A stretch of 64,000 nt of DNA, taken from positions 1-64,000 of the forward strand of contig NZ_BLYC01000010.1 of assembly GCF_019721995.1 (NCBI RefSeq), read 5' to 3'. Below are positions 1,654-64,000 of the stretch, in pieces. The DNA comes from Bathymodiolus japonicus methanotrophic gill symbiont (lineage in GTDB: Bacteria; Pseudomonadota; Gammaproteobacteria; Methylococcales; Methylomonadaceae). Both the position numbers and the translations under genes were made by a program. The notes beneath the pieces were generated by a model. It saw only the letters and a program-made list of their open reading frames with translations, was not told where the DNA came from and searched no databases. The number at the start of each line of letters is the position of its first letter. The stretch's first letter is position 1.

Positions 1654-1836
1654 CGCTGAAAATCATGGAAACGTAGCTTAGCGAAGTGTTGATTTTTAGT
1701 CCCTGATAGGCGACAGGGCAATTCGCTGATTCGACGTGTGCTAGCAGCACGCGAGAGGAGCAAGAATTGCATTCCGAATAGCCGTCCAGCCAGTGAGGTA
1801 GTAATGACGAAGCGGCTTTTGTGCGTAGTCGTTGCG
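1654..1836 (-). repeat. SE-C short repeat, truncated
   Basis: The tail two thirds of an SE-C element in reverse orientation (starts CGCTGAAAATCATGG on this strand). It stops abruptly at 1836 where an ISB right end begins, so the CAGGCGCGCC head is missing. Confidence 0.85.
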
Positions 1837-1901
1837 TCATTGTTCTGCTGGGTGAAGGTAAGAGTTTGATGGCAATGGGATGGAAAAACTTGAACATCGA
1901 G
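1837..1901 (+). mobile_element. ISB right-end fragment
   Basis: 65 bp matching the right end of the ISB copy that finishes at 47335, ending in CTTGAACATCGAG. It immediately precedes IS3 sequence, so it marks an old ISB insertion in the IS3 copy whose body has been lost. Confidence 0.8.
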
Positions 1902-1952
1902 TAATAATAAATTAAGCGAATATGAGCAACTCGCTATTTTAATGACCTGTAA

Positions 1953-2104
1953 CTCGATGTTCAAGTTTTTTAACTGATTGATTTTATTGATAATTTTACT
2001 GACAAAGAAAGCATCAACATCATTGTAAATCAATCACTTATAAAACAAAGCCGGAAAAATTTACTTTTCTTAGCCCAGTTATAGCTGAAAACTTGAACAT
2101 CGAG
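1953..2104. repeat. MITE-B, 152 bp
   Basis: Inverted ends CTCGATGTTCAAG / CTTGAACATCGAG, no coding capacity. Flanked by the 5-bp target duplication TGTAA (1948-1952 and 2105-2109) inside IS3 orfB; removing the element and one duplication restores the reading frame. The ends match those of ISB, which is the likely source of its transposase. Confidence 0.93.
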
Positions 2105-2231
2105 TGTAATGAGGACGAGTATGCCAATTTACCACCGAGTCAAATCGTCCCTATCCTGGCAGACAAAGGCATCTACATTGCCTCCGAATCATCATTTTAT
2201 CGAGTGTTGCATAAAGCAGAACAAGTCACAC

Positions 2232-2526
2232 TCGGGGAGTCGCTATTTTTGCGAAAGCTTGTTTTGGGCATCCCAGCCCAAGCAAGCAGCAAAAACTTAA
2301 CGCGACCACTTATGCCTCCGGCGGCCCCGATTCGTCCTCGTCACCTCGTCCCGACCCAACAAGGGGTCGGAACATAGGCTCCAAATGACTTGACGCCGTG
2401 TCGGATGGCCTTTTATTTTGTCTCCACCTTCGCTAACGCTCAGACTCCGACAAAACAACGGCCCTACGGCTATCGCGGACTAAAAATCATCACTTCGCTT
2501 AGGCTCCGTTTCCCTGATTTTCAGCG
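2232..2526 (+). repeat. SE-A short repeat (295 bp)
   Basis: Head TCGGGGAGTCGC, tail hairpin AAAATCA/TGATTTT followed by CAGCG. Inserted in IS3 orfB; the uninterrupted sequence at 17243-17262 shows no target duplication and no loss. Confidence 0.93.
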
Positions 2527-3047: not shown

Positions 3048-3342
3048 TTGGGGAGTCGCTATTTTTGCGAAAGCTTGTTTTGGGCATCCCAGCCCAAGCA
3101 AGCAGCAAAAACTTAACGCGACCACTTATGCCTCCGGCGGCCCCGATTCGTCCTCGTCACCTCGTCCCGACCCAACAAGGGGTCGGAACATAGGCTCCAA
3201 ATGACTTGACGCCGTGTCGGATGGCCTTTTATTTTGTCTCCACCTTCGCTAACGCTCAGACTCCGACAAAACAACGGCCCTACGGCTATCGCGGACTAAA
3301 AATCTTCACTTCGCTAAAGCTCCGTTTCCAGGATTTTCAGCG
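3048..3342 (+). repeat. SE-A short repeat (295 bp)
   Basis: Starts TTGGGGAGTCGC and ends GGATTTTCAGCG. It joins the middle of IS3 orfB to IS3 right-end sequence, so the part of orfB between them has been lost, perhaps by recombination between two SE-A copies. Confidence 0.92.
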
Positions 3343-3979: not shown

Positions 3980-4183
3980 CTGAAGTTTCCCAATTATTGA
4001 GTAGCTGAAATACACAATGCTGGTGTATCGAGGTTTATTTTAGGTGGTTTTGCCATGTTTATAGCAAACCCCTACTTAATTCCCCTTAGGCAATAGCATT
4101 TGAAACGAATGAAAAGACTGTTTTTTTCATATAGTTGTAGCATAGTTTCAATTTTACCATAAATAATTATTGGGAAACTTCAG
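3980..4183. repeat. MITE-A, 204 bp
   Basis: Inverted ends CTGAAGTTTCCCAAT / ATTGGGAAACTTCAG, AT-rich interior without an ORF. Identical in length to the copy at 55724-55927. No clean target duplication is visible here (TTAAGGG against TTAAGCG), so one flank has probably been rearranged. Confidence 0.9.
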
Positions 4184-4355
4184 TTAAGCGTATTTTTCTT
4201 AATAATAACCCAGAGTAAAAAATCTAAAGTTTTTTACTCCTGCTTGTTCGATTATTATGTGACTACACGGCCAGGAATTCGCGGCAATAAAAAGCATATC
4301 CCGTTATAATATTGACCTCTATTATGAACTTATTAAGAATTCCTAGAACACTATT

Positions 4356-8486: not shown

Positions 8487-8746
8487 CAGGCGCGCCATGC
8501 TACCTCACGAAATTCCGGGACTCCTGTCGCCGTAATTCGTTCACCTACGCAGCGAATAGGAGATGCTCCAGCCGCCCTGCGTCCGCCACAGACTGAGCAC
8601 AAAGCAGCTCAGTCATGGCTACCACAAATGGCTCTACGGCTATTCGGGATAAAATTTTAGCCTCCCTCGCGCGCTATCGCGCACTTCGGATTGGCAAATT
8701 TCCCTGCGCCTTCTGGAGACTATCAGCCCGTCCGGGGCTGACAGCG
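8487..8746 (+). repeat. SE-B short repeat (260 bp)
   Basis: Head CAGGCGCGCC, tail hairpin TCAGCCC/GGGCTGA then CAGCG. It lies between the end of aas and the hypX remnant, so the C-terminal end of hypX has been replaced at this point. Confidence 0.93.
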
Positions 8747-9183: not shown

Positions 9184-10717
9184 CATCAGTGTTCCCCTAT
9201 CAATTGATGCCGTGAGACTAACCTCGCCACAAGAGAGCTCATAAAGCACTGTAAAGACATTCCTGTTATTATTGCGTTTTGAACTGCCCGAATGGTATAC
9301 GAGCTGATACGAGATATTCTTGCCTGGAAAAATAATGGATTCACAAAACGATCTCGTTTTTGAGCCTGTTGCTGCCTTATCTCCAGAGCCTCGCTATATT
9401 TTTTATCCGATGGATGAATCAATTCTGGCTGTTGTGTTTTTGAACTCTCTTCAAACACGCGCATTAAATTATAGCTCATTGCAGTCAGGCGCATTTGATT
9501 TTCAAGTGAGCGGGTATTGGAAGACCAAGCTTTAGTTTCCTTGAAATTACTTTTAGTGTTATTGAATGTCTTTTCAATCGTCCATCGCTTGAAATACAGC
9601 ATGGCAATGGTTCCAGGGTTAATAGTCATTGGCAAGGTTGTCACAAACCGGTGAAGTTTTCCGGTTTCTGGATCACGGTAATCCACCACGTTAAATTTGA
9701 TGCCCTTGTTTTCGTACACACTGTATGCTTCAACCCCTGTATTGATCTCATGGCGGGAGTCAAAAGGGATAGACTCAACGAGAGTCGCAATTGAATTTTC
9801 TTTTAGCATTGAAATCATGTAATTAGCATGTCGTTTCTGCCGATCCCACCAGACAAAGTCGGTGACGGCTTTATCGTAGACATAGAGATGTTTCTGAGAG
9901 CTGTTATTTCCCTTGTTTTGCTTTTCAATATGATCTCGTAACACAGGTATTTCTTGATGCCTCTGAGTTCCGTTTGTCACCAGACAAAGAAATCTGAGCA
10001 ACCCACTTCTGAGATTCAACGCGTAAATCCCCCCAGCCGCATAAACTTTCCCCTTGCTGTTTTTTTCAGTATGGCAGGCATGATCAATAAAATGTCCATC
10101 CGCTGCTTCTATGGTGTATTCGTCAAGTTCCGGGAATGCTTTAAGATAATCAATGCCTTGCGACAGCAGTGTTTCAGCGTGAAGATGATAGCTCTGCTGT
10201 TCAAATGCCTCAAGCATACTTGTTCGTCTATGCGACTTCAGTGATTTAAAATACGTTGAGTGGGGAAGCAGCTGGCCATAAATCTGTTCATTGGTTTGGA
10301 GGAAATGGCGACCACTATCGACTACACTGATACAGCGTAATAACCCAAGGCGAATAAAGTCGATATCCTTCAACTCTGGGCATGAACGAGCCCACAAAGG
10401 ATGACGCTCTGCTAACAGGGAACGTTCCATACTTTCATTGCAGTGTTGGTGAATATGTTCAGAGAGTGGTAGGTCTTTAAGCATGGGTGATATCCGTTTA
10501 TGAGGTGATTAAAACGGAAATTTTTAGAAAAATTTTTTCGGCAATTGCAAGCTTTATTTGAAATTATTTGTTGTTTTTTTACGGTGCCTACAGAGTGTCT
10601 ATTTGCTGTTATAAGTGATTAAAATCAAAAAGATGTAAATATTCGAGTGGTGCTACCTTCAGGTAGGTTATAGGCTGCTTTGTTTAGGTACTTCTTCTTT
10701 CAATGGGAACACTGATG
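9184..10717 (-). mobile_element. IS4-A, complete copy with target duplication
   Basis: 1534 bp, bounded by CATCAGTGTTCCC inverted ends. The 8-bp direct repeat ATGGATTT lies at 9176-9183 and 10718-10725, showing that this IS makes 8-bp duplications. It interrupts hypX between the linker and the hydratase domain. Confidence 0.97.
9186..10484 (-). CDS. IS4-family transposase (DDE), intact
   Basis: 432 residues, differing from the copy at 3-1301 by a handful of residues (for example RSLLAE for RALLAE near position 21 and HAETLL for HSETLL near 102). The DDE acids and the Y-x2-R-x3-E-x6-K signature are present. High similarity between copies points to recent amplification. Confidence 0.92.
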   Translation of the reverse strand: MLKDLPLSEHIHQHCNESMERSLLAERHPLWARSCPELKDIDFIRLGLLRCISVVDSGRHFLQTNEQIYGQLLPHSTYFKSLKSHRRTSMLEAFEQQSYHLHAETLLSQGIDYLKAFPELDEYTIEAADGHFIDHACHTEKNSKGKVYAAGGIYALNLRSGLLRFLCLVTNGTQRHQEIPVLRDHIEKQNKGNNSSQKHLYVYDKAVTDFVWWDRQKRHANYMISMLKENSIATLVESIPFDSRHEINTGVEAYSVYENKGIKFNVVDYRDPETGKLHRFVTTLPMTINPGTIAMLYFKRWTIEKTFNNTKSNFKETKAWSSNTRSLENQMRLTAMSYNLMRVFEESSKTQQPELIHPSDKKYSEALEIRQQQAQKRDRFVNPLFFQARISRISSYTIRAVQNAIITGMSLQCFMSSLVARLVSRHQLIGEH

Positions 10718-11010: not shown

Positions 11011-11290
11011 CGCTGAAAATCATGGAAACGTAGCTTAGCGAAGTGGTGATTTTTAGTCCCTGATAGGCGACAGGGCAATTCGCTGATTCGACGTGTGCTA
11101 GCAGCACGCGAGAGGAGCAAGAATTGCATTCCGAATAGCCGTCCAGCCAGTGAGGTAGTAATGACGAAGCGGCTTTTGTGCGTAGTCGTTGCGGACGCAG
11201 GGCGTTCAGGGCATCTCCCATCCGCTGCGTAGGTGAACGAATTATGGCGACAGGAGTCCCGGAATTTCGTGAGGTAGCATGGCGCGCCTG
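11011..11290 (-). repeat. SE-C short repeat (280 bp) in hypX
   Basis: Complete, reverse orientation. The target in element orientation is CTGCAT / GCGGCA; it rejoins in frame with no duplicated base. Confidence 0.94.
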
Positions 11291-11627: not shown

Positions 11628-11907
11628 CAGGCGCGCCATGCTACCTCACGAAATTCCGGGACTCCTGTCGCCATAATTCGTTCACCTACGCAGCGGATGG
11701 GAGATGCCCTGAACGCCCTGCGTCCGCAACGACTACGCACAAAAGCCGCTTCGTCATTACTACCTCACTGGCTGGACGGCTATTCAGAATGCAATTCTTG
11801 CTCCTCTCGCGTGCTGCTAGCACACGTCGAATCAGCGAATTGCCCTGTCGCCTATCAGGGACTAAAAATCACCACTTCGCTAAGCTACGTTTCCATGATT
11901 TTCAGCG
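11628..11907 (+). repeat. SE-C short repeat (280 bp) at the hypX/ppnN junction
   Basis: Complete copy with hypX on its left and ppnN on its right. Both genes are divergent and both lack their 5' ends exactly here, as expected if two SE-C copies recombined and deleted what lay between. Confidence 0.94.
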
Positions 11908-12170: not shown

Positions 12171-12465
12171 ACGGGGAGTCGCTATTTTTGCGAAAGCTTG
12201 TTTTGGGCATCCCAGCCCAAGCAAGCAGCAAAAACTTAACGCGACCACTAATGCCTCCGGCGGCCCCGATTCGTCCTCGTCACCTCGTCCCGACCCAACA
12301 AGGGGTCGGAACATAGGCTCCAAATGACTTGACGCCGTGTCGGATGGCCTTTTATTTTGTCTCCACCTTCGCTAACGCTCAGACTCCGACAAAATAACGG
12401 CCCTACGGCTATCGCGGACTAAAAATCATCACTTCGCTTAGGCTCCGTTTCCCTGATTTTCAGCG
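12171..12465 (+). repeat. SE-A short repeat (295 bp) in ppnN
   Basis: Starts ACGGGGAGTCGC, showing that the first base varies. Target ATTTCG / CGCGAA is rejoined exactly. Confidence 0.94.
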
Positions 12466-12489: not shown

Positions 12490-12784
12490 TCGGGGAGTCG
12501 CTATTTTTGCGAAAGCTTGTTTTGGGCATCCCAGCCCAAGCAAGCAGCAAAAACTTAACGCGACCACTTATGCCTCCGGCGGCCCCGATTCGTCCTCGTC
12601 ACCTCGTCCCGACCCAACAAGGGGTCGGAACATAGGCTCCAAATGACTTGACGCCGTGTCGGATGGCCTTTTATTTTGTCTCCACCTTCGCTAACGCTCA
12701 GACTCCGACAAAATAACGGCCCTACGGCTATCGCGGACTAAAAATCATCACTTCGCTTAGGCTCCGTTTCCCTGATTTTCAGCG
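12490..12784 (+). repeat. SE-A short repeat (295 bp) in ppnN
   Basis: Only 24 bp after the preceding SE-A, same orientation. Target ACGAAA / GAAGTA is rejoined exactly. Confidence 0.94.
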
Positions 12785-13454: not shown

Positions 13455-13714
13455 CAGGCGCGCCATGCTACCTCACGAAATTCCGGGACTCCTGTCGCCG
13501 TAATTCGTTCACCTACGCAGCGAATAGGAGATGCTCCAGCCGCCCTGCGTCCGCCACAGACTGAGCACAAAGCAGCTCAGTCATGGCTACCACAAATGGC
13601 TCTACGGCTATTCGGGATAAAATTTTAGCCTCCCTCGCGCGCTATCGCGCACTTCGGATTGGCAAATTTCCCTGCGCCTTCTGGAGACTATCAGCCCGTC
13701 CGGGGCTGACAGCG
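13455..13714 (+). repeat. SE-B short repeat (260 bp) in ppnN
   Basis: Target AAAGACG / AGGGAATC is rejoined in frame. No target duplication. Confidence 0.94.
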
Positions 13715-14461: not shown

Positions 14462-15260
14462 TACTTACTCCAAAAAAATGAATTGATGCATAGTCTACCA
14501 TTAATAAATTGAATTCTATTTAGGAACCTGGATTTATTAACTGAAGTTTCCTAGTTTTTAAAGCATAAGAATATCAGCTAATGCTTATTTTTCTGAAATA
14601 TTAGGTATTACTAATATTAATGGCATTCCGTTGACTAAAAGCCTTGAATTCTTTTTAAAAACAACAGGTTAATCGTGAATGAGGCCTAGTTTTACTGTAT
14701 AATGAAAGTTTATAACACATTGATTATACAAATAAAACGACCTCATTCATGTTCATTTTACGCGATATTTTACTCCCGCTTCAAGATCATTTTTCCAAAA
14801 CCACTTTAGGCCGCGAACGAGCCTCTCTGTTTGTTTACACGATCCTGTCTATTATCGTTCCCTTTACGTCGTCGATGACATCTAATCTTTGGCGTTGCCT
14901 TGATACGTTGTTCGGGTTTGAGATCAAGAATAAGCGCTTTTACACTTTCATGGCTTCTTCAACTTTGCCGTGGGCTGGGCTGTGGAAAACTATCTGGGAG
15001 CTGATTCCGTCTCCTGAAACAGATGGGCGCATATTGGTTGCACTGGATGACTCCATTATCACTAAAGTAGGCAAAAATATCTTCGGCTGTGAAGCCATTT
15101 TTGACCACGCGGCCAAATCGAATCAAAGCAAATATCCCCCCCCCCGTGTCAGGATAGTTTTCGCCTTATTTGAAAAATAATAACTCAAACAAGGGGCGGA
15201 AAAATAAAACCATGACAACTCAATACCCAAAAGAAAGAAAAGATGCCATCATTAACAAAA

Positions 15261-15389
15261 CTGAAGTTTCCCAATAATTATTTATGGTAAAATTGAAACT
15301 ATGCTACAACTATATGAAAAAAATAGTCTTTTCATTCGTTTCAAATGCTATTGCCTAAGGGGAATTAAGTAGGGGTTTGCTATAAACAT
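15261..15389 (-). repeat. MITE-A, half copy
   Basis: Begins CTGAAGTTTCCCAAT and stops at ATAAACAT, where IS4-A is inserted. ATAAACAT is the IS4-A target duplication in this MITE (also seen at 41180-41187). The other half is not beside it. Confidence 0.88.
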
Positions 15390-16936
15390 CATCAGTGTTC
15401 CCCTATCAATTGAGGCCGTGAAACTAACCTCGCCACAAGAGAGCTCATAAAGCACTGTAAAGACATTCCTGTTATTATTGCGTTTTGAACTGCCCGAATG
15501 GTATACGAGATGATACGAGATATTCTTGCCTGGAAAAATAATGGATTCACAAAACGATCTCGTTTTTGGGCCTGTTGCTGCCTTATCTCCAGAGCCTCGC
15601 TATATTTTTTATCCGATGGATGAATCAATTCTGGCTGTTGTGTTTTTGAAATCTCTTCAAACACGCGCATTAAATTATAGCTCATTGCAGTCAGGCGCAT
15701 TTGATTTTCAAGTGAGCGGGTATTGGAAGACCAAGCTTTAGTTTCCTTGAAATTACTTTTAGTGTTATTGAATGTCTTTTCAATCGTCCATCGCTTGAAA
15801 TACAGCATGGCAATGGTTCCAGGGTTAATAGTCATTGGCAAGGTTGTCACGAACCGGTGAAGTTTTCCGGTTTCTGGATCACGGTAATCCACCACGTTAA
15901 ATTTGATGCCCTTGTTTTCGTACACACTGTATGCTTCAACTCCTGTATTGATCTCATGCTGGGAGTCAAAAGGGATAGACTCAACCAGAGTCGCAATTGA
16001 ATTTTCTTTTAGCATTGAAATCATGTAATTAGCATGTCGTTTCTGCCGATCCCACCAGACAAAGTCGGTGACGGCTTTATCGTAGACATAGAGATGTTTC
16101 TGAGAGCTGTTATTTCCCTTGTTTTGCTTTTCAATATGATCTCGTAACACAGGTATTTCTTGATGCCTCTGAGTTCCGTTTGTCACCAGACAAAGAAATC
16201 TGAGCAACCCACTTCTGAGATTCAACGCGTAAATCCCCCCGGCCGCATAAACTTTCCCCTTGCTGTTTTTTTCAGTATGGCAGGCATGATCAATAAAATG
16301 TCCATCCGCCGCTGGAAATCCTGGAAACGGAGCTTTAGCGAAGTGAAGATTTTTAGTCCGCGATAGCCGTAGGGCCGTTGTTTTGTCGGAGTCTGAGCGT
16401 TAGCGAAGGTGGAGACAAAATAAAAGGCCATCCGACACGGCGTCAAGTCATTTGGAGCCTATGTTCCGACCCCTTGTTGGGTCGGGACGAGGTGACGAGG
16501 ACGAATCGGGGCCGCCGGAGGCATAAGTGGTCGCGTTAAGTTTTTGCTGCTTGCTTGGGCTGGGATGCCCAAAACAAGCTTTCGCAAAAATAGCGACTCC
16601 CCGATGCTTCTATGGTGTATTCGTCAAGTTCCGGGAATGCTTTAAGATAATCAATGCCTTGCGATAGCAGTGTTTCAGCGTGAAGATGATAGCCCTGCTG
16701 TTCAAATGCCTCAAGCATACTTGTTCGTCTATGCGACTTCAGTGATTTAAAATACGTTGAGTGGGGAAGCAGCTGGCCATAAATCTGTTCATTGGTTTGG
16801 AGGAAATGGCGACCACTATCGACTACACTGATACAGCGTAATAACCCAAGGCGAATAAAGTCGATATCCTTCAACTCTGGGCATGAACGAGCCCACAAAG
16901 GATGACGCTCTACTAACAGGGCACGTTCCATACTTT
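15390..16936 (-). mobile_element. IS4-A, interrupted and truncated copy
   Basis: Left end at 15390. The transposase frame (15392-16931) is split by SE-A at 16310-16604 and the element ends at 16936 where SE-B begins, losing the first ~18 transposase codons and the right end. Removing SE-A restores the normal IS4-A sequence across TCCATCCGC / TGCTTC. Confidence 0.9.
16310..16604 (-). repeat. SE-A short repeat (295 bp) in IS4-A
   Basis: Reverse orientation. Target in element orientation AGAAGCA / GCGGATG, no duplication. Same sense as the interrupted transposase. Confidence 0.95.
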
Positions 16937-17196
16937 CGCTGTCAGCCCCGGACGGGCTGATAGTCTCCAGAAGGCGCAGGGAAATTTGCCAATCCGAAGT
17001 GCGCGATAGCGCGCGAGGGAGGCTAAAATTTTATCCCGAATAGCCGTAGAGCCATTTGTGGTAGCCATGACTGAGCTGCTTTGTGCTCAGTCTGTGGCGG
17101 ACGCAGGGCGGCTGGAGCATCTCCTATTCGCTGCGTAGGTGAACGAATTACGGCGACAGGAGTCCCGGAATTTCGTGAGGTAGCATGGCGCGCCTG
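16937..17196 (-). repeat. SE-B short repeat (260 bp) joining IS4-A to IS3
   Basis: Complete copy with IS4-A on one side and IS3 orfB on the other. It cannot have inserted into one target, so recombination between SE-B copies with deletion is likely. Confidence 0.93.
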
Positions 17197-17484: not shown

Positions 17485-18778
17485 CTCGATGTTCAAGTTT
17501 TTCCATCCCATTGCCATCAAACTCTTACCTTCACCCAGCAGAACAATACTTTAATGATGCTGTTGGCCCTAAGCGCCCTAAATCTCTGCCAATCATATGT
17601 TTTCCTGATGGCATCAGTTGAAACACATCCTTTATTAATTCACCTAACTCTTTCAGCTTATCACCAGGATCTGGAAACTCTAGCAATGACGTGATGAACT
17701 CAAGCAGTACATCCATTTGAGACTTGCGCTGTAAGCTTCCTACGGTCGCTGCCAGCCATGGAGAGCGAAAGCGAGGGCTGGTAGTCCCCAGAAGGCGTAG
17801 GGCCGTTGTTTTGTCGAAATCGTAGCGCTAGCGTAGGTGTAGACAAAATAAAAGGCATTCCGAAACGCCGTCCAGTCATTTGAGGGAGTGTTACGAAGCC
17901 AGCACCGAGTTTACGATGGTAATGGCGAAGTGGCACGTACGCAGGACGTCTGGGGCGCCGAAGGCATTAGTGGTCGCGTTAAGTTTTTGCCGCTTGCTTG
18001 GGCTGGGATGCCCAAAACAAGCTTTCGCAAAAATAGCGACTCCCCGCATACGCAGGTAGTTTGCTTTCAATGCGGGCTATTTGCTCTGGGTGAAGGAGAA
18101 GGCAATGGTCAAACAAAAGACTCAGAATCAGGCCACGGCTTGATCCCTCTTCATCTAATTGTTTGGCCTCACGCCCCCATCCTTCATAAAGCTTCCAGTC
18201 CTCAAAGAAAACCTCAATCAGCCATCTCAACGTATAGGCTTGAATAATATCTTGTGTGCGCCAAGTCAGGTCTGTCGCCACTAAATAGCGATAGTCGTTT
18301 TCACCGTCATATTTTAAGGCAATGACAAAGCGTTTTTTACTGTGTGAACTCACCTTTAATCGTGCACTGCTGACAGTCACTTTAATCTCTTTTCCGCCAC
18401 GTACACGTATTATCTGATCAATGCCTTTGTTAATCGAATTAAAGTACTCTCGACGGACCTTATTCTACCTCTATATTCAATTTTTTGGTTTTACGTAATT
18501 GGCTAATCACCTGCGAGCCTCCATTTCTTTAGCGGCTTCGCCCTAGAGGCTTGTTTCACCATACATCGCATCACGAGTACGCCCTTAATTTTAATCAGGC
18601 TATGCTCACTTAAACTCTTTTATAAGCCTAATGCAATCTCTGTTTTGGTCGGGTAGGCACTGTCACGTTTCAGGCTAATAGGCCTATATTTTTTTTGCTA
18701 TACGCTCTTTTTCAACCGTTTTTCTTCTTATCCCACTGCTTTAAGGCTGGATCCGCATATAAAAGAAAACCGACAGGC
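17485..18778 (-). mobile_element. ISB (IS4-family) copy, interrupted and truncated
   Basis: Starts with the ISB terminal sequence CTCGATGTTCAAG at 17485. The transposase is readable on the minus strand from about 18480 (VTVSSARLKVSSHSKKR) through the Y-x2-R-x3-E-x6-K signature in YTLRWLIEVFFEDWK to MDVLLEFITSLLEF. SE-D interrupts it at 17747-18047. Upstream of 18480 the sequence degenerates, and it is cut at 18778 by an SE chimera. The copy at 46239-47335 covers the same protein region. Confidence 0.82.
17747..18047 (-). repeat. SE-D short repeat (301 bp) in ISB
   Basis: Head GCGGGGAGTCGC (shared with SE-A) and tail GGCTGGCAGCG (SE-B type). Target rejoins exactly: flanks ATACG and GTACC are contiguous in the ISB copy near 47070. 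Confidence 0.93.
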
Positions 18779-19054
18779 TCGGGGAGTCGCTATTTTCCAG
18801 GCGCGCCATGCTACCTCACGAAATTCTGGACCCTGTCGCCATAATTCCGTTCACCTACCGCAGCGAATCGGAGATGCTCCAGCCCACCTGCGGTCCGCCA
18901 CAGACTGAGCACAAAGCAGCTCATCATGGCTACCCAAATGGCTCTACGGCTATTCGGGGATAAAATTTTATCCTCCCTCGCGCGCTATCGCGCACTTCGG
19001 AATTGGCAAATTTCCCTGCGCCTTCGAGACTTCAGCCCGTCCGGGCTGACAGCG
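18779..19054 (+). repeat. SE-A head fragment fused to a decayed SE-B
   Basis: The first ~18 bp of SE-A (to GTCGCTATTTT) directly precede an SE-B copy of 257 bp with many single-base indels. The same A-head/B joint occurs at 44902-45179, so it may be a hybrid element rather than two chance events. Confidence 0.8.
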
Positions 19055-21103: not shown

Positions 21104-21398
21104 TCGGGGAGTCGCTATTTTTGCGAAAGCTTGTTTTGGGCATCCCAGCCCAAGCAAGCAGCAAAAACTTAACGCGACCACTTATGCCTCCGGCGGCCCC
21201 GATTCGTCCTCGTCACCTCGTCCCGACCCAACAAGGGGTCGGAACATAGGCTCCAAATGACTTGACGCCGTGTCGGATGGCCTTTTATTTTGTCTCCACC
21301 TTCGCTAACGCTCAGACTCCGACAAAACAACGGCCCTACGGCTATCGCGGACTAAAAATCATCACTTCGCTTAGGCTACGTTTCCCTGATTTTCAGCG
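21104..21398 (+). repeat. SE-A short repeat (295 bp) upstream of the beta-propeller gene
   Basis: Complete copy, antisense to the gene. On its other side it abuts a large imperfect foldback. Confidence 0.94.
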
Positions 21399-32173: not shown

Positions 32174-32214
32174 AATGCAATTCTTGCTCCTCTCGCGTGC
32201 TGCTAGCACACGTC

Positions 32215-41179: not shown

Positions 41180-41262
41180 ATAAACATGACAGAACCACCT
41201 AAAATAAACCTCGATACACCAGCATTGTGTATTTCAGCTACTCAATAATTGGGAAACTTCAG
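41180..41262 (-). repeat. MITE-A, half copy
   Basis: Begins ATAAACATG (IS4-A target site) and ends GGGAAACTTCAG. Complementary in extent to the half at 15261-15389. Confidence 0.85.
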
Positions 41263-43300: not shown

Positions 43301-44817
43301 CATCAGTGTTCCCCTATCAATTGAGGCCGTGAAACTAACCTCGCCACAAGAGAGCTCATAAAGCACTGTAAAGACATTCCTGTTATTATTGCGTTTTGAA
43401 CTGCCCGAATGGTATACGAGCTGATACGAGATATTCTTGCCTGGAAAAATAATGGATTCACAAAACGATCTCGTTTTTGAGCCTGTTGCTGCCTTATCTC
43501 CAGAGCCTCGCTATATTTTTTATCCGATGGATGAATCAATTCTGGCTGTTGTGTTTTTGAAATCTCTTCAAACACGCGCATTAAATTATAGCTCATTGCA
43601 GTCAGGCGCATTTGATTTTCAAGTGAGCGGGTATTGGAAGACCAAGCTTTAGTTTCCTTGAAATTACTTTTAGTGTTATTGAATCGTCCATCGCTTGAAA
43701 TACAGCATGGCAATGGTTCCAGGGTTAATGGTCATTGGCAAGGTTGTCACAAACCGGTGAAGTTTTCCGGTTTCTGGATCTCGGGGAGTCGCTATTTTTG
43801 CGAAAGCTTGTTTTGGGCATCCCAGCCCAAGCAAGCAGCAAAAACTTAACGCGACCACTTATGCCTCCGGCGGCCCCGATTCGTCCTCGTCACCTTGTCC
43901 CGACCCAACAAGGGGTCGGAACATAGGCTCCAAATGACTTGACGCGGTGTCGGATGGCCTTTTATTTTGTCTCCACCTTCGCTAACGCTCAGACTCCGAC
44001 AAAACAACGACCCTACGGCTATCGCGGACTAAAAATCATCACTTCGCTTAGGCTACGTTTCCCTGATTTTCAGCGACGGTAATCCACCACGTTAAATTTG
44101 ATGCCCTTGTTTTCGTACACACTGTATGCTTCAACCCCTGTATTGATCTCATGGCGGGAGTCAAAAGGGATAGACTCAACGAGAGTCGCAATTGAATTTT
44201 CTTTTAGCATTGAAATCATGTAATTAGCATGTCGTTTCTGCCGATCCCACCAGACAAAGTCGGTGACGGCTTTATCGTAGACATAGAGATGTTTCTGAGA
44301 GCTGTTATTTCCCTTGTTTTGCTTTTCAATATGATCTCGTAACACAGGTATTTCTTGATGTCTCTGAGTTCCGTTTGTCACCAGACAAAGAAATCTGAGC
44401 AACCCACTTCTGAGATTCAACGCGTAAATCCCCCCGGCCGCATAAACTTTCCCCTTGCTGTTTTTTTCAGTATGGCAGGCATGATCAATAAAATGTCCAT
44501 CCGCTGCTTCTATGGTGTATTCGTCAAGTTCCGGGAATGCTTTAAGATAATCAATGCCTTGCGATAGCAGTGTTTCAGAGTGAAGATGATAGCTCTGCTG
44601 TTCAGATGCCTCAAGCATACTTGTTCGTCTATGCGACTTCAGTGATTTAAAATACGTTGAGTGGGGAAGCAGCTGGCCATAAATCTGTTCATTGGTTTGG
44701 AGGAAATGGCGACCACTATCGACTACACTGATACAGCGTAATAACCCAAGCCGAATAAAGTCGATATCCTTCAACTCTGGGCATGAACGAGACCACAAAG
44801 GATGACGCTCTGCTAAC
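43301..44817 (-). mobile_element. IS4-A, interrupted and truncated copy
   Basis: Left end at 43301 in MITE-A at ATGTTTAT. SE-A interrupts the transposase at 43781-44075 and an 11-bp deletion lies near 43684. Ends at 44817 inside the transposase start; 44818-44901 is unrecognised. Confidence 0.9.
43781..44075 (+). repeat. SE-A short repeat (295 bp) in IS4-A
   Basis: Target TCTGGATC / ACGGTAATC, exact against four other IS4-A copies. Confidence 0.96.
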
Positions 44818-44901: not shown

Positions 44902-45179
44902 GCGGGGAGTCGCTATTTTCAGGCGCGCCATGCTACCTCACGAAATTCCGGGACTCCTGTCGCCGTAATTCGTTCACCTACGCAGCGAATAGGAGATGCT
45001 CCAGCCGCCCTGCGTCCGCCACAGACTGAGCACAAAGCAGCTCAGTCATGGCTACCACAAATGGCTCTACGGCTATTCGGGATAAAATTTTAGCCTCCCT
45101 CGCGCGCTATCGCGCACTTCGGATTGGCAAATTTCCCTGCGCCTTCTGGAGACTATCAGCCCGTCCGGGGCTGACAGCG
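44902..45179 (+). repeat. SE-A head fragment fused to SE-B
   Basis: 18 bp of SE-A head (44902-44919) joined to a complete SE-B (44920-45179). The joint after GTCGCTATTTT is the same as at 18797. Confidence 0.88.
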
Positions 45180-45437
45180 TAGGCAATAGCATTTGAAACG
45201 AATGAAAAGACTGTTTTTTTCATATAGTTGTAGCATAGTTTCAATTTTACCATAAATAATTATTGGGAAACTTCAGTAGACAAAAAGTTAAGTCCATTAT
45301 TACCAAAATTCCCGATGACATATTGGGTGATAAAAGAAAAGAATACAAACATAAAAGCAAACAAAATATTGCTGTTGATAGCTCCAGAGGATGTTGCGTT
45401 GTATTACTTGCAGGTATGGCAGCACTATTGTTGTCCA

Positions 45438-45732
45438 TCGGGGAGTCGCTATTTTTGCGAAAGCTTGTTTTGGGCATCCCAGCCCAAGCAAGCAGCAAAA
45501 ACTTAACGCGACCACTTATGCCTCCGGCGGCCCCGATTCGTCCTCGTCACCTTGTCCCGACCCAACAAGGGGTCGGAACATAGGCTCCAAATGACTTGAC
45601 GCCGTGTCGGATGGCCTTTTATTTTGTCTCCACCTTCGCTAACGCTCAGACTCCGACAAAACAACGGCCCTACGGCTATCGCGGACTAAAAATCTTCACT
45701 TCGCTAAAGCTCCATTTCCAGGATTTTCAGCG
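45438..45732 (+). repeat. SE-A short repeat (295 bp) in DUF4010 gene
   Basis: Target TTGTCCA / GGTGAAG. No duplication. Confidence 0.94.
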
Positions 45733-45958: not shown

Positions 45959-46238
45959 CAGGCGCGCCATGCTACCTCACGAAATTCCGGGACTCCTGTC
46001 GCCATAATTCTTTCACCTACGCAGCGGATGGGAGATGCCCTGAACGCCCTGCGTCCGCAACGACTACGCACAAAAGCCGCTTCGTCATTACTACCTCACT
46101 GGCTGGACGGCTATTCAGAATGCAATTCTTGCTCCTCTCGCGTGCTGCTAGCACACGTCGAATCAGCGAATTGCCCTGTCGCCTATCAGGGACTAAAAAT
46201 CACCACTTCGCTAAGCTACGTTTCCATGATTTTCAGCG
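45959..46238 (+). repeat. SE-C short repeat (280 bp) joining DUF4010 to ISB
   Basis: Complete copy with the DUF4010 remnant on the left and ISB transposase sequence on the right, implying a deletion or rearrangement. Confidence 0.93.
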
Positions 46239-47335
46239 GGCGTACTGGCTGATGCGCTGTATGGTGAAAAGCCTTTATGGACGAAGCCGCTAAAGAATCT
46301 GGAGGCTCGCAGGTGATTAGCCAATTATGTAAAAACCAAAATATTGAATATAGAGGTAGAATAAGGTCAGTCGAGAGCTACTTTAATTCGATTAACAAAG
46401 GCATTGATCAGATAATACGTGTACGTGGCGGCAAAGAGATTAAAGTGACTGTCAGCAGTGCACGATTAAAAGTGGGATCTCACAGTAAAAAGCGCTTTGT
46501 CATTGCCTTAAAATATGACGGTGAAAACGACTATCGCTATTTAGTGGCGACAGACCTGACTTGGCGCACACAAGATATTATTCAAGCCTATACGTTGAGA
46601 TGGCTGATTGAGGTTTTCTTTGAGGACTGGAAGCTTTAATGAAGGATGGGGGCGTGAGGCCAAACAATTATTGGGGAGTCGCTATTTTTGCGAAAGCTTG
46701 TTTTGGGCATCCCAGCCCAAGCAAGCAGCAAAAACTTAACGCGACCACTTATGCCTCCGGCGGCCCCGATTCGTCCTCGTCACCTCGTCCCGACCCAACA
46801 AGGGGTCGGAACATAGGCTCCAAATGACTTGACGCCGTGTCGGATGGCCTTTTATTTTGTCTCCACCTTCGCTAACGCTCAGACTCCGACAAAATAACGG
46901 CCCTACGGCTATCGCGGACTAAAAATCATCACTTCGCTTAGGCTCCGTTTCCCTGATTTTCAGCGGATGAAGAGGGGTCAAGCCGTGGCCTGATTCTGAG
47001 TCTTTTGTTTGACCATTGCCTTCTCCTTCACCCAGAGCAAATAGCCCGCATTGAAAGCAAACTACCTGCGTATACCGTAGGAAGCTTACAGCGCAAGTCT
47101 CAAATGGATGTACTGCTTGAGTTCATCACGTCATTGCTAGAGTTTCCAGATCCTGGTGATAAGCTGAAAGAGTTAGGTGAATTAATAAAGGATGTGTTTC
47201 AACTGATGCCATCAGGAAAACATATGACTGGCAGAGATTTAGGGCGCTTAGGGCCAACAGCATCATTAAAGTATTGTTCTGCTGGGTGAAGGTAAGAGTT
47301 TGATGGCAATGGGATGGAAAAACTTGAACATCGAG
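46239..47335 (+). mobile_element. ISB (IS4-family) copy, 5'-truncated, with SE-A
   Basis: Transposase readable from 46277 (DEAAKESGGSQVISQLCK), through VTVSSARLKVGSHSKKRF and the signature YTLRWLIEVFFEDWK (Y, R, E, K), across SE-A at 46671-46965, to LLEFPDPGDKLKELGEL. The right end CTTGAACATCGAG at 47335 has the inverse sequence of MITE-B ends. The N-terminal part is missing. Confidence 0.88.
46671..46965 (+). repeat. SE-A short repeat (295 bp) in ISB
   Basis: Target CAATTA / GATGAAG, exact against the ISB copy near 18155. Confidence 0.95.
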
Positions 47336-48670: not shown

Positions 48671-50361
48671 TCAGTGTTCCCATTGAAAGAAGAAGTGCCT
48701 AAACAAAGCAGCCTATAACCTACCTGAAGGTAGCACCACTCGAATATTTCCATCTTCTTGATTTTAATCACTTATAACAGCAAATAGACACTCTGTAGGC
48801 ACCGTAAAAAAACAACAAATAATTTCAAATAAAGCTTGCATTTGCCGAAAAGATTCTTCTAAAAATTTCCGTTTTAATCACCTCATAAACGGATATCACC
48901 CATGCTTAAAGACCTACCACTCTCTGAACATATTCACCAACACTGCAATGAAAGTATGGAACGTGCCCTGTTAGCAGAGCGTCATCCTTTGTGGGCTCGT
49001 TCATGCACAGAGTTGAAGGATATATCGACTTTATTCGCCTTGGGTTATTACGCTGTATCAGTGTAGTCGATAGTGGTCGCCATTTCCTCCAAACCAATGA
49101 ACAGATTCATGGCCAGCTGCTTCCCCACTCAACGTATTTTAAATCACTGAAGTCGCATAGACGAACAAGTATGCTTGAGGCATTTGAACAGCAGAGCTAT
49201 CATCTTCACGCTGAAACACTGCTATCGCAAGGCATTGATTATCTTAAAGCATTCCCAGAACTTGACGAATACACCATAGAAGCAGCGGATGGACATTTTA
49301 TTGATCATGCCTGCCATACTGAAAAAAACAGCAAGGGGAAAGTTTATGCGGCCGGGGGGATTTACGCGTTGAATCTCAGAAGTGGGTTGCTCAGATTTCT
49401 TTGTCTGGTGACAAACGGAACTCAGAGACATCAAGAAATACCTGTGTTACGAGATCATATTGAAAAGCAAAACAAGGGAAATAACAGCTCTCAGAAACAT
49501 CTCTATGTCTACGATAAAGCCGTCACCGACTTTGTCTGGTGGGATCGGCAGAAACGACATGCTAATTACATGATTTCAATGCTAAAAGAAAATTCAATTG
49601 CGACTCTCGTTGAGTCTATCCCTTTTGACTCCCGCCATGAGATCAATACAGGGGTTGAAGCATACAGTGTGTACGAAAACAAGGGCATCAAATTTAACGT
49701 GGTGGATTACCGTGATCCAGAAACCGGAAAACTTCACCGGTTTGTGACAACCTTGCCAATGACTATTAACCCTGGAACCATTGCCATGCTGTATTTCAAG
49801 CGATGGACGATTGAAAAGACATTCAATAACACTAAAACTCGATGTTCAAGTTTTCAGCTATAACTGGGCTAAGAAAAGTAAATTTTTCCGGCTTTGTTTT
49901 ATAAGTGATTGATTTACAATGATGTTGATGCTTTCTTTGTCAGTAAAATTATCAATAAAATCAATCAGTTAAAAAACTTGAACATCGAGTAAAAGTAATT
50001 TCAAGGAAACTAAAGCTTGGTCTTCCAATACCCGCTCACTTGAAAATCAAATGCGCCTGACTGCAATGAGCTATAATTTAATGCGCGTGTTTGAAGAGAT
50101 TTCAAAAACACAACAGCCAGAATTGATTCATCCATCGGATAAAAAATATAGCGAGGCTCTGGAGATAAGGCAGCAACAGGCTCAAAAACGAGATCGTTTT
50201 GTGAATCCATTATTTTTCCAGGCAAGAATATCTCGTATCAGCTCGTATACCATTCGGGCAGTTCAAAACGCAATAATAACAGGAATGTCTTTACAGTGCT
50301 TTATGAGCTCTCTTGTGGCGAGGTTAGTTTCACGGCCTCAATTGATAGGGAAACACTGATG
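48671..50361 (+). mobile_element. IS4-A copy with MITE-B, transposase dead
   Basis: Near full-length, right end at 48671 and left end at 50361. The transposase starts at 48903 but a 2-bp insertion at GGATATATCGAC near 49023 shifts the frame, and MITE-B interrupts it at 49838. The flanks do not form a target duplication (IS1634 on one side, MITE-A on the other), so it lies at a recombination junction. Confidence 0.9.
49838..49989. repeat. MITE-B (152 bp) in IS4-A
   Basis: 5-bp target duplication TAAAA at 49833-49837 and 49990-49994, confirmed by the empty site in other IS4-A copies. Confidence 0.96.
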
Positions 50362-50490
50362 ATGTTTATAGCAAACCCCTACTTAATTCCCCTTAGGCAA
50401 TAGCATTTGAAACGAATGAAAAGACTATTTTTTTCATATAGTTGTAGCATAGTTTCAATTTTACCATAAATAATTATTGGGAAACTTCAG
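50362..50490 (+). repeat. MITE-A, half copy
   Basis: Begins ATGTTTATAGC next to IS4-A and ends GGGAAACTTCAG. Confidence 0.88.
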
Positions 50491-50607: not shown

Positions 50608-50902
50608 CGCTGAAAATCAGGGAAACGGAGCCTAAGCGAAGTGATGATTTTTAGTCCGCGATAGCCGTAGGGCCGTTATTTTGTCGGAGTCTGAGCGTTA
50701 GCGAAGGTGGAGACAAAATAAAAGGCCATCCGACACGGCGTCAAGTCATTTGGAGCCTATGTTCCGACCCCTTGTTGGGTCGGGACGAGGTGACGAGGAC
50801 GAATCGGGGCCGCCGGAGGCATAAGTGGTCGCGTTAAGTTTTTGCTGCTTGCTTGGGCTGGGATGCCCAAAACAAGCTTTCGCAAAAATAGCGACTCCCC
50901 AA
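50608..50902 (-). repeat. SE-A short repeat (295 bp)
   Basis: Reverse orientation, two bases after the stop codon of the flavin reductase-like gene and before its probable terminator. Confidence 0.94.
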
Positions 50903-53144: not shown

Positions 53145-53148
53145 ATGT

Positions 53149-55325: not shown

Positions 55326-55727
55326 ATGCAAAAAGAGAGTATCCACACTGAATCTGCACCCCAGGCAATTGGCACTTATTCTCAGGCAGTTAAAGTAGGG
55401 ACAACGATCTACCTGTCAGGACAAATCCCACTGGATCCCGTCTCAATGGAAGTCGTAACAGGTGATATCAGCGCACATATCAAACAGGTGTTTGATAATT
55501 TAACGGCTGTCGCACAGGCGGCTGGTGGTGAATTGCAGGATGTTGTTAAATTGAATGTTTTCCTCACCGACTTGTCTTATTTTCCTATCGTGAATGAAAT
55601 AATGGGGCAGTATTTTAACCAGCCCTACCCTGCCCGTGCAGTCATCGGTGTTGCTGCATTACCTAAAGGTGTTAGCGTAGAAATGGATGCGGTGATGGAA
55701 TTAAAGTCGCCTGAGTATAATTACTGA
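55326..55727 (+). CDS. ridA: RidA/YjgF enamine/imine deaminase
   Basis: 133 residues. Family signatures [23 protein letters not shown] and [23 protein letters not shown], with the active-site Arg in PARAV. RidA hydrolyses reactive 2-aminoacrylate made by PLP enzymes. Close behind spoT (8 bp). MITE-A entered at the stop codon; because the target duplication repeats TATAATTA, the last residues and a stop (now TGA from the MITE) are preserved. Confidence 0.95.
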
Positions 55728-55927
55728 AGTTTCCCAATTATTGAGTAGCTGAAATACACAATGCTGGTGTATCGAGGTTTATTTTAGGTGGTTTTGCCAT
55801 GTTTATAGCAAACCCCTACTTAATTCCCCTTAGGCAATAGCATTTGAAACGAATGAAAAGACTGTTTTTTTCATATAGTTGTAGCATAGTTTCAATTTTA
55901 CCATAAATAATTATTGGGAAACTTCAG
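55724..55927. repeat. MITE-A, complete with target duplication
   Basis: 204 bp, flanked by TATAATTA (55716-55723 and 55928-55935). This copy fixes the ends and the 8-bp duplication of the family. Confidence 0.96.
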
Positions 55928-56015
55928 TATAATTATTAACCCCCCTTTTTTAACATTTTAAAACATTAGCGGCCTAATTCCGAGCCACTCCTACTGCTAA
56001 AGTTAATGACTTACC

Positions 56016-61114: not shown

Positions 61115-62208
61115 TACATTTCATAGGTGTTCATTTTATCATCCAGGCGTGGCCAGGCTGATACCACTGCTTTAACCAGAGTAGCAAGAGGAATAGCAAA
61201 AAAGACGCCCCAAAACCCCCAAAGTCCACCAAAAAACAAGATAGCAACGATAATGGCAGCCGGATGCAGGTTAACCGCTTCCGAGAAAAGCAGTGGTACT
61301 AAAACCACACCATCAATAGCCTGTATGATTGAATAAGCAATTACCGTGTACATAAATTCATCGCCGCCAAACCCCCATTGAAAAAAGGCCACGCCCAAAA
61401 CAGGAAAAGTCACTAGCGTAGCACCTACGTATGGGATAATCACTTGCAGCCCCATAAACACAGACAACAATACCGCATAATTAAGCCCTAACGCAGAAAA
61501 TGTCATATAACTGACAATACCAAGTATTAAAACCTCGACAAATTTCCCACGTATATAGTTACCCAATTGCATATCTACTTCGACCCAGACATTGACAGAT
61601 AACAACCTATCCCGGGGTAAAAACTTAGCAAACCAGTCTAATAAAATTTTCTTATCTTTCAAACAGAAAAAGATTAGCACCGGAACCAAAATCAAATAGA
61701 CTAAGACACTGATAATGCCTACTACCGATGAGGCGGAAAAGCTTAATAAGTCCTGGCCATAGCTCAATGCCTCTTGCTGAATAGCAAACATGAGTTCACG
61801 CAATTTATCAGCAGATATAATTTGCGGATAGGCTTCCGGCAATTTCAAAATTTCTGCTTGCGAGCTTTTTATAATGTCCGGTGTATGCTGCAAGAGCTGT
61901 TTTAGCTGCTTATATAGCATAGGCATCAGGCCAAATAATAAATAACTAAAAGCACCCATAAACCCTGAAAACACAATTAATACAGCAGGTAGACGCTTTA
62001 GTTTATGCTCTAGCTTTTTGACCATGCCTTCTAATAAGTAGGCTAATACAATGGCAATAAAAACCGGCATTAATACATCAGCCAGAGATGTAATTAACAA
62101 GAATCCAACGATTAAAATAATCGCTAAAGCCACTGCTTGCGAATTGGGTAGAATTCGCTTTATACTGTCTTTTAAAAATTGTAGATTGGAAAAATCATTA
62201 CGCTGCAT
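61114..62208 (-). CDS. AI-2E family membrane protein (PerM-like)
   Basis: 364 residues with about eight hydrophobic helices in the AI-2E transporter pattern (PF01594): VALAIILIVGFLLITSLADVLMPVFIAIVLAYLLEG near the N-terminus, and LVTFPVLGVAFFQWG and GGLWGFWGVFFAIPLATLVKAV near the end. Substrate is not predictable from sequence. Coupled to mazG. Confidence 0.9.
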   Translation of the reverse strand: MQRNDFSNLQFLKDSIKRILPNSQAVALAIILIVGFLLITSLADVLMPVFIAIVLAYLLEGMVKKLEHKLKRLPAVLIVFSGFMGAFSYLLFGLMPMLYKQLKQLLQHTPDIIKSSQAEILKLPEAYPQIISADKLRELMFAIQQEALSYGQDLLSFSASSVVGIISVLVYLILVPVLIFFCLKDKKILLDWFAKFLPRDRLLSVNVWVEVDMQLGNYIRGKFVEVLILGIVSYMTFSALGLNYAVLLSVFMGLQVIIPYVGATLVTFPVLGVAFFQWGFGGDEFMYTVIAYSIIQAIDGVVLVPLLFSEAVNLHPAAIIVAILFFGGLWGFWGVFFAIPLATLVKAVVSAWPRLDDKMNTYEM

Positions 62209-62242
62209 AGTGACTATTTATTATTGTTATTTTTATTAGATG

Positions 62243-62611
62243 TCAGGGGCAATACGTAGCATTAGTTTTCGGTGTCTCGCTGACACTGACTGAAATGACT
62301 TCCTGCCAGATCTGCCTGGCATGATCGTATAGATATTTGGCTATACTTTCTGCTGTGGTAGAACCTGTTAAGACATCATTAAGGTGACGATGATCCAGCG
62401 TCTCATCAATCATTTTTTTAAAAACAATTAGTTCATTATAATCAACCACAAATCCGGTTGCATTGAGTTCTTCTGCGGCCAGAACCAGTTCGACAACATA
62501 ATTATGCCCGTGCAATCGGCTACAGGGGTGTTGCTCTGGTAGTCCCTCAATAATATGACTTGCACTAAAATTAAATTGCTTGGAAATTGTGTACACGCTA
62601 TTTTGTTCCAC
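62243..62611 (-). CDS. queD: 6-carboxy-5,6,7,8-tetrahydropterin synthase
   Basis: 122 residues. Zinc ligands in FSASH and LHGHNY, active-site Cys in CSRLHGH, plus DYNELI, LDHRHLND and STTAESIAKY. Second step of queuosine precursor synthesis. 34 bp upstream of the AI-2E gene. 62612-62813 beyond it holds only small hairpins (AGCCGAC...GCCGGCT). Confidence 0.95.
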   Translation of the reverse strand: MEQNSVYTISKQFNFSASHIIEGLPEQHPCSRLHGHNYVVELVLAAEELNATGFVVDYNELIVFKKMIDETLDHRHLNDVLTGSTTAESIAKYLYDHARQIWQEVISVSVSETPKTNATYCP

Positions 62612-62813
62612 TGATATTAATCATGAAAAAAGCCGACCCTATAAAGCCGGCTCTGATAGAGTATCATTTTAACATGCTTAAACTTTTTACTTGTAAAACT
62701 TAATAGTTTGAACTTACTGACATTGCTAAATAGCCTGTTGCTATTCGTGCATGACCGACTTGCTTAACTGCTCTATTTTTTCACTGTAATCACTATATTC
62801 ATTCGACCTGAAT

Positions 62814-64000
62814 TCAAGTCATAAGTACATAACCCAATAAATTTTTCATATCTATCCCAGTCAGCTCTTCAAATACCTCATAAGGTGTTTTGTAATTGAG
62901 ACACTTTTTAGGGCGACTATTTAGCTTATCAACGGCTATAAAAACCTCTTTTATCGTAACATCAATCAACTCCATTACTTTAGGGAAATACTGTCTTAAT
63001 AAGCCATTAGCATTCTCATTTTGCCCTCTTTCCCAAGAGCTGTAGGGAGTCGAAAAATACGTATCACAACCTAGTGCTTCTGCTATTTTTTCATGCAGGG
63101 TAAACTCTTTCCCGTTATCAAAAGTAATTGTTTTAACAAAGCTTTTTATAGGATCAAGCATTAAAATAGTTGCGTCTAATACATATTGAGCCTTTTTCCC
63201 CGCTAAAGGGAAGGCCAACCGTAATTTAGAGACTCGCTCATCCAGCGTTACAATCGCCCCTTTGTGATTTTTCCCAATGATTGTATCTGCCTCCCAATCA
63301 CCTATACGCTTACGGTTGTTGACCTCTTCAGGACGCTCATCTATATCGACTCTATTAGGGATTCCTGTCCTATTATGGGCTGACCCATACCGCTTGCGAT
63401 AGGTTTTGTTCTGATGCCGAAGATGCTTGTATAGTTCACCCCCTGCCTTTTTGTCCGCCAGAATATGCTGGTAGATTGTTTCATTCGGGGAGTCGCTATT
63501 TTTGCGAAAGCTTGTTTTGGGCATCCCAGCCCAAGCAAGCAGCAAAAACTTAACGCGACCACTTATGCCTCCGGCGGCCCCGATTCGTCCTCGTCACCTC
63601 GTCCCGACCCAACAAGGGGTCGGAACATAGGCTCCAAATGACTTGACGCCGTGTCGGATGGCCTTTTATTTTGTCTCCACCTTCGCTAACGCTCAGACTC
63701 CGACAAAACAACGGCCCTACGGCTATCGCGGACTAAAAATCTTCACTTCGCTAAAGCTCCGTTTCCAGGATTTTCAGCGGATGAAGACTAATTATACCTT
63801 CTTGTTTTAACCGCCCTGCAATCTGCTCAGGACTCCAGTCATCCTCAATGCGAACATTAACAATGCCTTTTATTTCATCCGTTAATTTAACCTCTTTAGG
63901 CTTGTTTTTGTGTCGTTCTTGGGCAAAATCTTCTGCTTGTTTATGCCTGTAGCCTCTTTGACCTGTATTGCGTTTAATCTCGCGTGAAATATTGCTTTGG
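62814..64000 (-). pseudogene. IS30-family transposase, split by SE-A, continues beyond window
   Basis: On the minus strand 64000-63780 reads SNISREIKRNTGQRGYRHKQAE and WSPEQIAGRLKQEG (IS30 HTH part); 63484-62814 reads NETIYQHI, RIGDWEADTIIG, TFDNGKEF and PYSSWERGQNENANGLLRQYFPK, the DDE domain with its three acids. Excising SE-A gives SLHHETIYQ in frame, so this was an intact gene before the insertion. Confidence 0.9.
63485..63779 (+). repeat. SE-A short repeat (295 bp) in IS30
   Basis: Target GTTTCAT / GATGAAG, exact by reading frame. Antisense to the transposase. Confidence 0.95.

Follow-up and report, generated by a model that had tools for sequence, protein, structure and literature searches.

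How can short repeats without any coding capacity accumulate in a genome and leave neither a duplicated nor a missing base at their insertion sites? This question is raised by the first 64,000 nucleotides of contig NZ_BLYC01000010.1 (C10) of the Bathymodiolus japonicus methanotrophic gill symbiont, a stretch which is called the window here and which contains four types of such repeats, SE-A, SE-B, SE-C and SE-D. The genome of this symbiont (G000; 4.97 Mb, 98.9% complete) was sampled further by the first 200 kb each of contigs C1 and C2, which together with the window make up 464 kb. We put the probability at roughly 60% that the four types form one superfamily of non-autonomous mobile DNA, which an enzyme acting in trans inserts as a folded single strand.

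Junctions and target of the SE repeats

The window contains 14 full SE-A (295 bp), 9 SE-B (260 bp) and 2 SE-D copies (301 bp), the same numbers as in the initial annotation. Of SE-C or SE-C-like copies, for which the initial annotation had given six, the recount shows five whole ones (280 bp) and two damaged ones, of which one is truncated at the head (1654-1836) and the other is split by two nested insertions (31719-32553). In the 464 kb, blastn revealed 133 full copies of the first three types (56 SE-A, 38 SE-B and 39 SE-C), and a covariance model gave 150 matches, a few of them partial, which is about one per 3.1 kb. If this sample is typical, the whole genome would carry about 1,600 copies that make up about 9% of its sequence. 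SE-A is built of a variable dinucleotide followed by GGGGAGTCGC and ends in the tail CAGCG. SE-C is about 80% identical to SE-B over the first 240 bases and about 87% identical to SE-A over the last 60, and the types are therefore mosaic. Compared with the 133 full copies, only 21 partial or SE-D stretches were inspected. Most of these are due to nested insertions or deletions, and head-truncated copies are few among them.

For the empty-site test both 60-bp flanks of each of the 133 full copies were joined and matched within the sequence of the symbiont genome. The two extra head bases of SE-A were taken as part of the element, and a site was counted as exact if its 24 junction columns were gapless with not more than one mismatch. 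A match spanning the junction was obtained for 61 of the 133 copies, and 54 of these sites are exact (25 SE-A, 18 SE-B and 11 SE-C; 11 of the 54 in the window). The seven inexact sites comprise two tandem self-matches and one match that falls on the head of another SE-A copy; two further matches are weak, the site of c2_61725 is gapless with two mismatches, and that of c2_24344 is 6 nt short. A first pass had given 60 junction-spanning matches; c2_107595 also had one, fitting a 293-bp insert. Insertion is thus clean, and it is mostly full-length. SE-B and SE-C are inserted exactly from CAGGCG to CAGCG. In SE-A the dinucleotide ahead of GGGG is TC in 33 copies, TT in 17, AC in three, GC in one and CG in two, and we read the two CG-headed copies as SE-B nested directly before GGGG. 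The dinucleotide is independent of the internal haplotypes, as if it were re-made with each move.

These results agree with the initial annotation, which had described short mobile repeats that rejoin their targets without duplication or deletion, lack terminal inverted repeats and carry a hairpin beside the CAGCG end (TAGCG in the copy at 39900). Consistent target duplications, which would have spoken against it, did not appear in the empty-site tests, and no inverted repeats were found in the end sequences. Many of the empty sites are provided by a DDE_Tnp_1 insertion sequence (IS), which occurs in several copies (1-1301, 9186-10484, 15392-16225, 43301-44798 and 48991-49863; one was tested with Pfam), several of them broken by SE insertions.

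The initial annotation had also noted that the left flank is not a fixed tetranucleotide. On this side no motif was found among the 133 copies. It had missed the rule on the right side, where the fourth base after the tail (+4) is G in 130 of 133 copies (54 of 56 SE-A, 37 of 38 SE-B and all 39 SE-C). C at +1 (2/133) and G at +5 (7/133) are rare. Among AGCG-tailed copies the G at +4 is found in 24 of 26 from other Methylococcales and in 37 of 40 from elsewhere in the class, a class count from which 24 copies with other tails are excluded. One of the three class exceptions, L250, is a misplaced end, as comparison with identical copies indicates. The other-tailed copies of genomes G225 and G130, whose ends were set by comparing copies, likewise have G at +4. 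One target rule is thus kept at three depths of divergence.

Strand bias, fold and distribution

The copies lie in both orientations, as described before, though not evenly. On the two contigs with a G-rich plus strand 9 copies are found on the plus and 50 on the minus strand, and 7 and 39 respectively; in the C-rich window the numbers are 21 and 7. The repeats therefore run forward on the C-rich strand in 110 of 133 cases (p = 8e-15). Judged by the local skew over 6 kb, the numbers are 93 vs 40 in this genome and 43 vs 21 in other gammaproteobacterial families (p = 0.008). In most bacteria the G-rich strand is the leading strand. If this is so here, the strand that runs from CGCTG to the head is the one found in the lagging-strand template, and its 5' end is preceded, at a distance of four positions, by the fixed base, which on this strand is a C.

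Open frames of 450 nt or more contain 65 of 131 removable junctions, compared with 76% of random positions. Many of the interrupted frames resemble IS transposases by eye. The insertions inside such frames are 33 in sense and 32 in antisense, on which ground an intron nature of the repeats was rejected. SE insertion disrupts genes and is indifferent to transcription.

The whole length of the repeats is conserved as a fold. In an alignment of 27 diverse members from Methylococcales, ten helices with 52 pairs are supported by 91.1% paired cells vs 78.0% in shuffles, 146 vs 44 double-changed cells and a covariation score of 0.287 vs 0.111. Pairing falls below 50% if the partner is shifted by one column, a slide control on which the structure is favoured, since it was drawn partly from the aligned sequences by hand. 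RNAalifold alone gives a smaller structure of 26 pairs, and its consensus energy is lower on the reverse strand (-22.4 vs -10.0). The CCCC/GGGG helix is nested and forms no pseudoknot. G-U pairs are much less disruptive to RNA helices than A-C pairs. Among the SE helices 33 G·T and 25 A·C cells were counted in the 27-member, sequence-based alignment, and 33 G·T and 34 A·C among 1,434 cells from 34 non-redundant class members of 47 aligned. In 17 tRNA acceptor stems from the same loci, by comparison, the counts are 7 and 0. The similar numbers in SE would be expected if folded DNA were under selection, and the alignments suggest that selection acts on folded DNA rather than on RNA.

Matches to SE-A could be identified by blastn in 52, and to SE-B in 17, of 101 genomes of a set of relatives that includes the symbiont. 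The matches listed for the head pattern come mainly from Methylococcales and from a few metagenome-assembled genomes labelled otherwise; the hosts among them include Methylobacter, Methylomonas, Methylovulum, Crenothrix, Methyloprofundus and methane-oxidising symbionts of Bathymodiolus. Of 321 genomes sampled evenly across the class, 44 (in 36 of 243 genera) carry the family according to the covariance model; in a sample of the phylum it was found in only 2 of 398 genomes, namely the symbiont and one weak match. Near-identical copies at different sites are present in G225 (three) and G418 (four), 100% identical in each of these genomes. The copies of G134 are mostly 97.5-99.7% identical, some being older. 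In the 1.4-Mb, 100%-complete genome G130 two copies at different sites are identical over 247 bp; as one of them lies on a 3.5-kb contig, mis-binning is possible.

In a plasmid collection SE-A matches were found at 13 places on four records, all from Methylococcales (NZ_CP091425.1, CP157006.1, NZ_CP123898.1 and AP023241.1; ten places on one of them), which means that the repeats can lie on plasmids. No match came from two further, more distant plasmid queries or from a phage query. The tests run gave no indication of membership in a known IS or intron family, which the initial annotation had named as a possible refutation. The SE sequences tested matched no Rfam family at threshold, and permissive Rfam searches of three sets gave matches at chance level only. 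Two of these matches fell on SE (E 1.1 and 8.5), and neither HEARO nor any group II intron was among the families matched. In a related genome RF02001, a domain of group II introns, was matched near, and outside, an SE-B-like copy (L028, 790-963). At L047 (3450-3790; genome G037) an SE head ends abruptly and is followed by a frame starting with MNIIGIDVSK, which looks like an IS110-type transposase inserted in the repeat.

Proposed mechanism, candidate enzymes and rival explanations

Taken together, the fold, the one-sided target and the strand bias allow a mechanism to be proposed. A single strand would fold over the whole SE length (about 200-310 nt), and the fold would be recognized by a candidate enzyme acting in trans. 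The moving strand, we infer, would be the reverse complement of the head-to-tail sequence. The enzyme would join it into lagging-strand template that is single-stranded, at a point three bases downstream of a C, which would appear as NNNG to the right of the element, and replication would then make the inserted strand double-stranded. Candidates for such an enzyme may be an HUH protein outside the Pfam Y1 family or a tyrosine recombinase acting on folded strands, as integron integrases do. Most likely, the repeats are inserted as a single strand at the replication fork. A bolder version may be put forward tentatively, at somewhat less than even odds: that this is a superfamily of mobile DNA spanning the gammaproteobacterial class which moves as a fully folded single strand by a kind of recombinase not yet tied to transposition, depends on one target base at the fourth position from the junction and is able to reach about 1,600 copies, or 9% of the genome of a methane oxidiser.

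Several points weigh against insertion of a folded single strand. In other Methylococcales the bias by local GC skew is absent (15 vs 15), and the leading strand was assigned from GC skew without a mapped origin. The first two bases of SE-A differ among copies that are alike at other variable positions, which a fixed 3' cleavage site does not predict. The tRNA control for the G·T count is small, and the ARAGORN calls on which it relies favour G-U. As no enzyme was found, the mechanism rests on footprints.

The initial annotation had pointed to a single-strand route as in the IS200/IS605 or REP/RAYT systems. The route is supported indirectly, by the replication-strand bias, the one-sided target rule and the DNA-like fold; the named families are not. 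IS200/IS605 elements recognize their targets, which are fixed short motifs abutting the element, 5' of the strand that moves; SE would use the same side if the reverse strand moves. Like the MITEs (miniature inverted-repeat transposable elements) of IS200/IS605, SE inserts without duplication, shows a lagging-strand bias and has hairpins near its ends. In contrast to them its target is one base (C at -4) and not a tetranucleotide, no motif abuts the element, the whole repeat is conserved as a fold, no cognate tnpA was found, and some hosts have no detectable Y1. SE also shares with REPs and REPINs that it is high-copy, non-coding, folded and non-autonomous. Yet it is 200-310 nt long with ten helices, the GT[AG]G foot is no family feature as judged by eye from the ends, and one family spans a bacterial class, while REPs are described as not conserved between species in excerpts of PMC6006769.

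That SE are oversized relatives of REPINs or of IS200/IS605 MITEs and depend for their movement on a Y1 HUH transposase of the Pfam type, most probably a RAYT elsewhere in the genome, seems unlikely. Y1 genes are indeed common, being present in 88 of the 101 relatives and in 30 of 38 SE-bearing vs 9 of 17 SE-lacking class genomes tested (the SE-bearing G150, G295 and G376 were omitted), and the symbiont has one intact IS200-type and one RAYT-type gene. Lagging-strand targeting by IS608 and ISDra2, described in the same excerpts (PMC6006769), would also fit. However, 8 of the 38 SE-bearing genomes have no Y1 match, and among these is G130 with its pair of identical copies. The RAYT protein of the symbiont has no match in G020, G035, G047 and G060, each with many SE-A candidates at first look. 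Of 75 Y1, RAYT and IscB loci searched by blastn only L182 and, weakly, L209 contain SE, and the covariance model found the same two among 64 of them; no SE flanks the RAYT genes examined at L189-L218 save for the weak match at L209, and a transposase with its own ends matching SE, which the initial annotation had proposed to search for, was not found at the loci examined. At L182 (813-2271) one Y1 gene has three SE matches at distances of up to about 0.7 kb; its genome, G006, is dense in SE, and the closeness may be due to chance. The ends of one IS200-type tnpA element are unlike SE by eye. Two apparent linkages were rejected: in G134 SE cuts the 3' end of the neighbouring RAYT-like gene (L299, 3272-4123), and in G110 the RAYT beside SE is a tnpA-like fragment adjoining it.

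RNA-based schemes explain single features of SE, and we consider them far less probable. A guide-RNA element of OMEGA type without open reading frame (HEARO or IscB-like), whose left flank would serve as guide while NNNG would be the target-adjacent motif, is quite improbable. As a structured mobile sequence of about 200-300 nt with a right-flank motif, SE does resemble the IscB guide RNA, for which the excerpts of PMC9640706 describe a similar length, a 5' hairpin, a long-range CCCC/GGGG pairing, a terminal hairpin and an NNRR motif. Against this, not even at E values up to 10 was HEARO matched, IscB-type genes were found in 13 of the 101 relatives and not in the symbiont, TnpB was detected in 1 of the 19 SE-bearing genomes examined for it and not in the symbiont, the CCCC/GGGG core is nested, and G·T pairs do not exceed A·C. 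Even more improbable is a retroelement, in which an RNA copy would enter the target by reverse splicing or by target-primed reverse transcription. Clean full-length insertion without duplication would fit reverse splicing, and the group II intron RmInt1 also targets the lagging-strand template according to PMC8914252. A reverse transcriptase (RVT_1) was found in the symbiont and in 17 of 25 SE-bearing genomes tested; it is missing from the other eight, including the single-contig genomes G134 and G225, in which most copies share 97.5-100% identity. Unlike group II introns, SE has no group II Rfam match in the sequences tested, no sense bias and no left-flank motif, and the scarcity of head-truncated copies and the equal G·T and A·C counts argue in the same direction. 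A conventional DDE-derived MITE or decayed IS is the least credible of all: high copy number and missing coding capacity would suit it, and an ordinary MITE (D13) is present in the same genome, but SE shows neither target duplication nor terminal inverted repeats in its end sequences and empty sites, and its target rule is one-sided and concerns a single base. Thus the earlier statement that the repeats are unlike DDE MITEs is supported by the clean junctions and the target rule.

In integron attC cassettes a folded single strand recombines, as proposed here for SE, and the crossover is at G/TT. No G/TT crossover was found in the SE flanks, and the right flank has no TT core among the 133 copies. 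Phage-integrase (tyrosine recombinase) frames were noticed near SE at L053 (1135-2454), L080 (5722-6096) and L134 (475-885); they were picked by eye and without a control, and the L134 frame is below the Pfam cut-off.

No mobilising enzyme was found, in a search that did not cover tyrosine recombinases, Y2, Rep and IS110 genes genome-wide. For each of Y1, TnpB, IscB and reverse transcriptase there are SE-bearing genomes that lack it, and G130 has no match to Y1, RVT_1 or TnpB. Clusters of open frames around SE, in Methylococcales and at 60 loci of the class, contained no recurrent transposase; the largest are by eye SE translations or common genes. A longer SE with an enzyme gene between its ends was not seen by eye at 17 loci where the head has no tail nearby, of which one yielded nothing and from which heads at contig ends were left out. 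None of the enzymes tested can explain SE movement in every recently active host, though a host may have lost its enzyme. SE works like an IS200/IS605 derivative but is set apart from that family by the tests made here.

Copies in the window and meaning of the family

The full SE-A copies on the plus strand of the window are located, with right flanks in brackets, at 2232-2526 (ATAG), 3048-3342 (GAGG), 12171-12465 (CGCG), 24 bp further at 12490-12784 (GAAG), 21104-21398 (GGGG), 31879-32173 (AATG), 40366-40660 (AAAG), 43781-44075 (ACGG), 45438-45732 (GGTG), 46671-46965 (GATG) and 63485-63779 (GATG), and those on the minus strand at 16310-16604 (GCGG), 24226-24520 (AAGG) and 50608-50902 (TTAG). 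Empty sites are available for those starting at 2232, 16310, 24226, 31879, 40366, 43781, 46671 and 63485. SE-B is found on the plus strand at 8487-8746 (ATTG), 13455-13714 (AGGG), 37153-37412 (GTTG), 39900-40161 (AATG; the copy with the TAGCG end, with empty site), 42139-42398 (TGAG) and 44920-45179 (TAGG), and a diverged copy (about 93%) lies within an SE-A head fragment at 18798-19054 (TGCG); on the minus strand it occupies 16937-17196 (AAAG) and 32215-32474 (GACG; with empty site).

Full SE-C copies are present on the plus strand at 2543-2822 (AGAG; with empty site), 11628-11907 (GGGG) and 45959-46238 (GGCG) and on the minus strand at 11011-11290 (GCGG), where also a full SE-C-like copy, about 85% identical to SE-C, is found at 42690-42972 (TATG). 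The head-truncated copy, on the minus strand with right flank GTAG, retains SE-C positions 98-280. The split copy, on the plus strand, contains the SE-A of 31879-32173 and the SE-B of 32215-32474, both nested exactly. The two SE-D copies are at 17747-18047 (minus; ACCG) and 32632-32932 (plus; AGGG).

The MITE D13, 204 bp long with inverted ends (ACTGAAGTTTCCCAATAATT), is present at 3981-4184 and 55725-55928, and in split or partial form at 15260-15389, 41180-41261, 43219-43300, 45180-45277 and 50362-50490. On contig C2 its halves also lie about 1.6-1.7 kb apart, as if flanking an IS. At 44920-45285 an SE-A head fragment, SE-B and D13 follow each other in this order, which suggests a rearrangement between nested elements. 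Among PMC6006769, PMC3116915, PMC9755519, PMC9640706, PMC4853749 and PMC10652631, as far as excerpts of these papers go, the Thiomargarita MITEs are described with direct and inverted repeats, unlike SE. The literature searched, in short ranked listings which make this a weak negative, holds no description of SE elements.

The repeats of the window are one branch of a superfamily, and the finding is larger than first stated. If the reading as folded single-stranded mobile DNA is true, a family of mobile elements without Rfam entry or description in the literature searched extends over a bacterial class, fills about a tenth of the sampled methane-oxidiser genome, interrupts its genes and holds to a single target rule across widely diverged members. 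This rule, the clean junctions and the strand bias would make the enzyme findable by experiment, and covariation of Watson-Crick pairs over the whole length without an excess of G-U would offer comparative sequence analysis a natural case on which to test how DNA folds can be distinguished from RNA folds.

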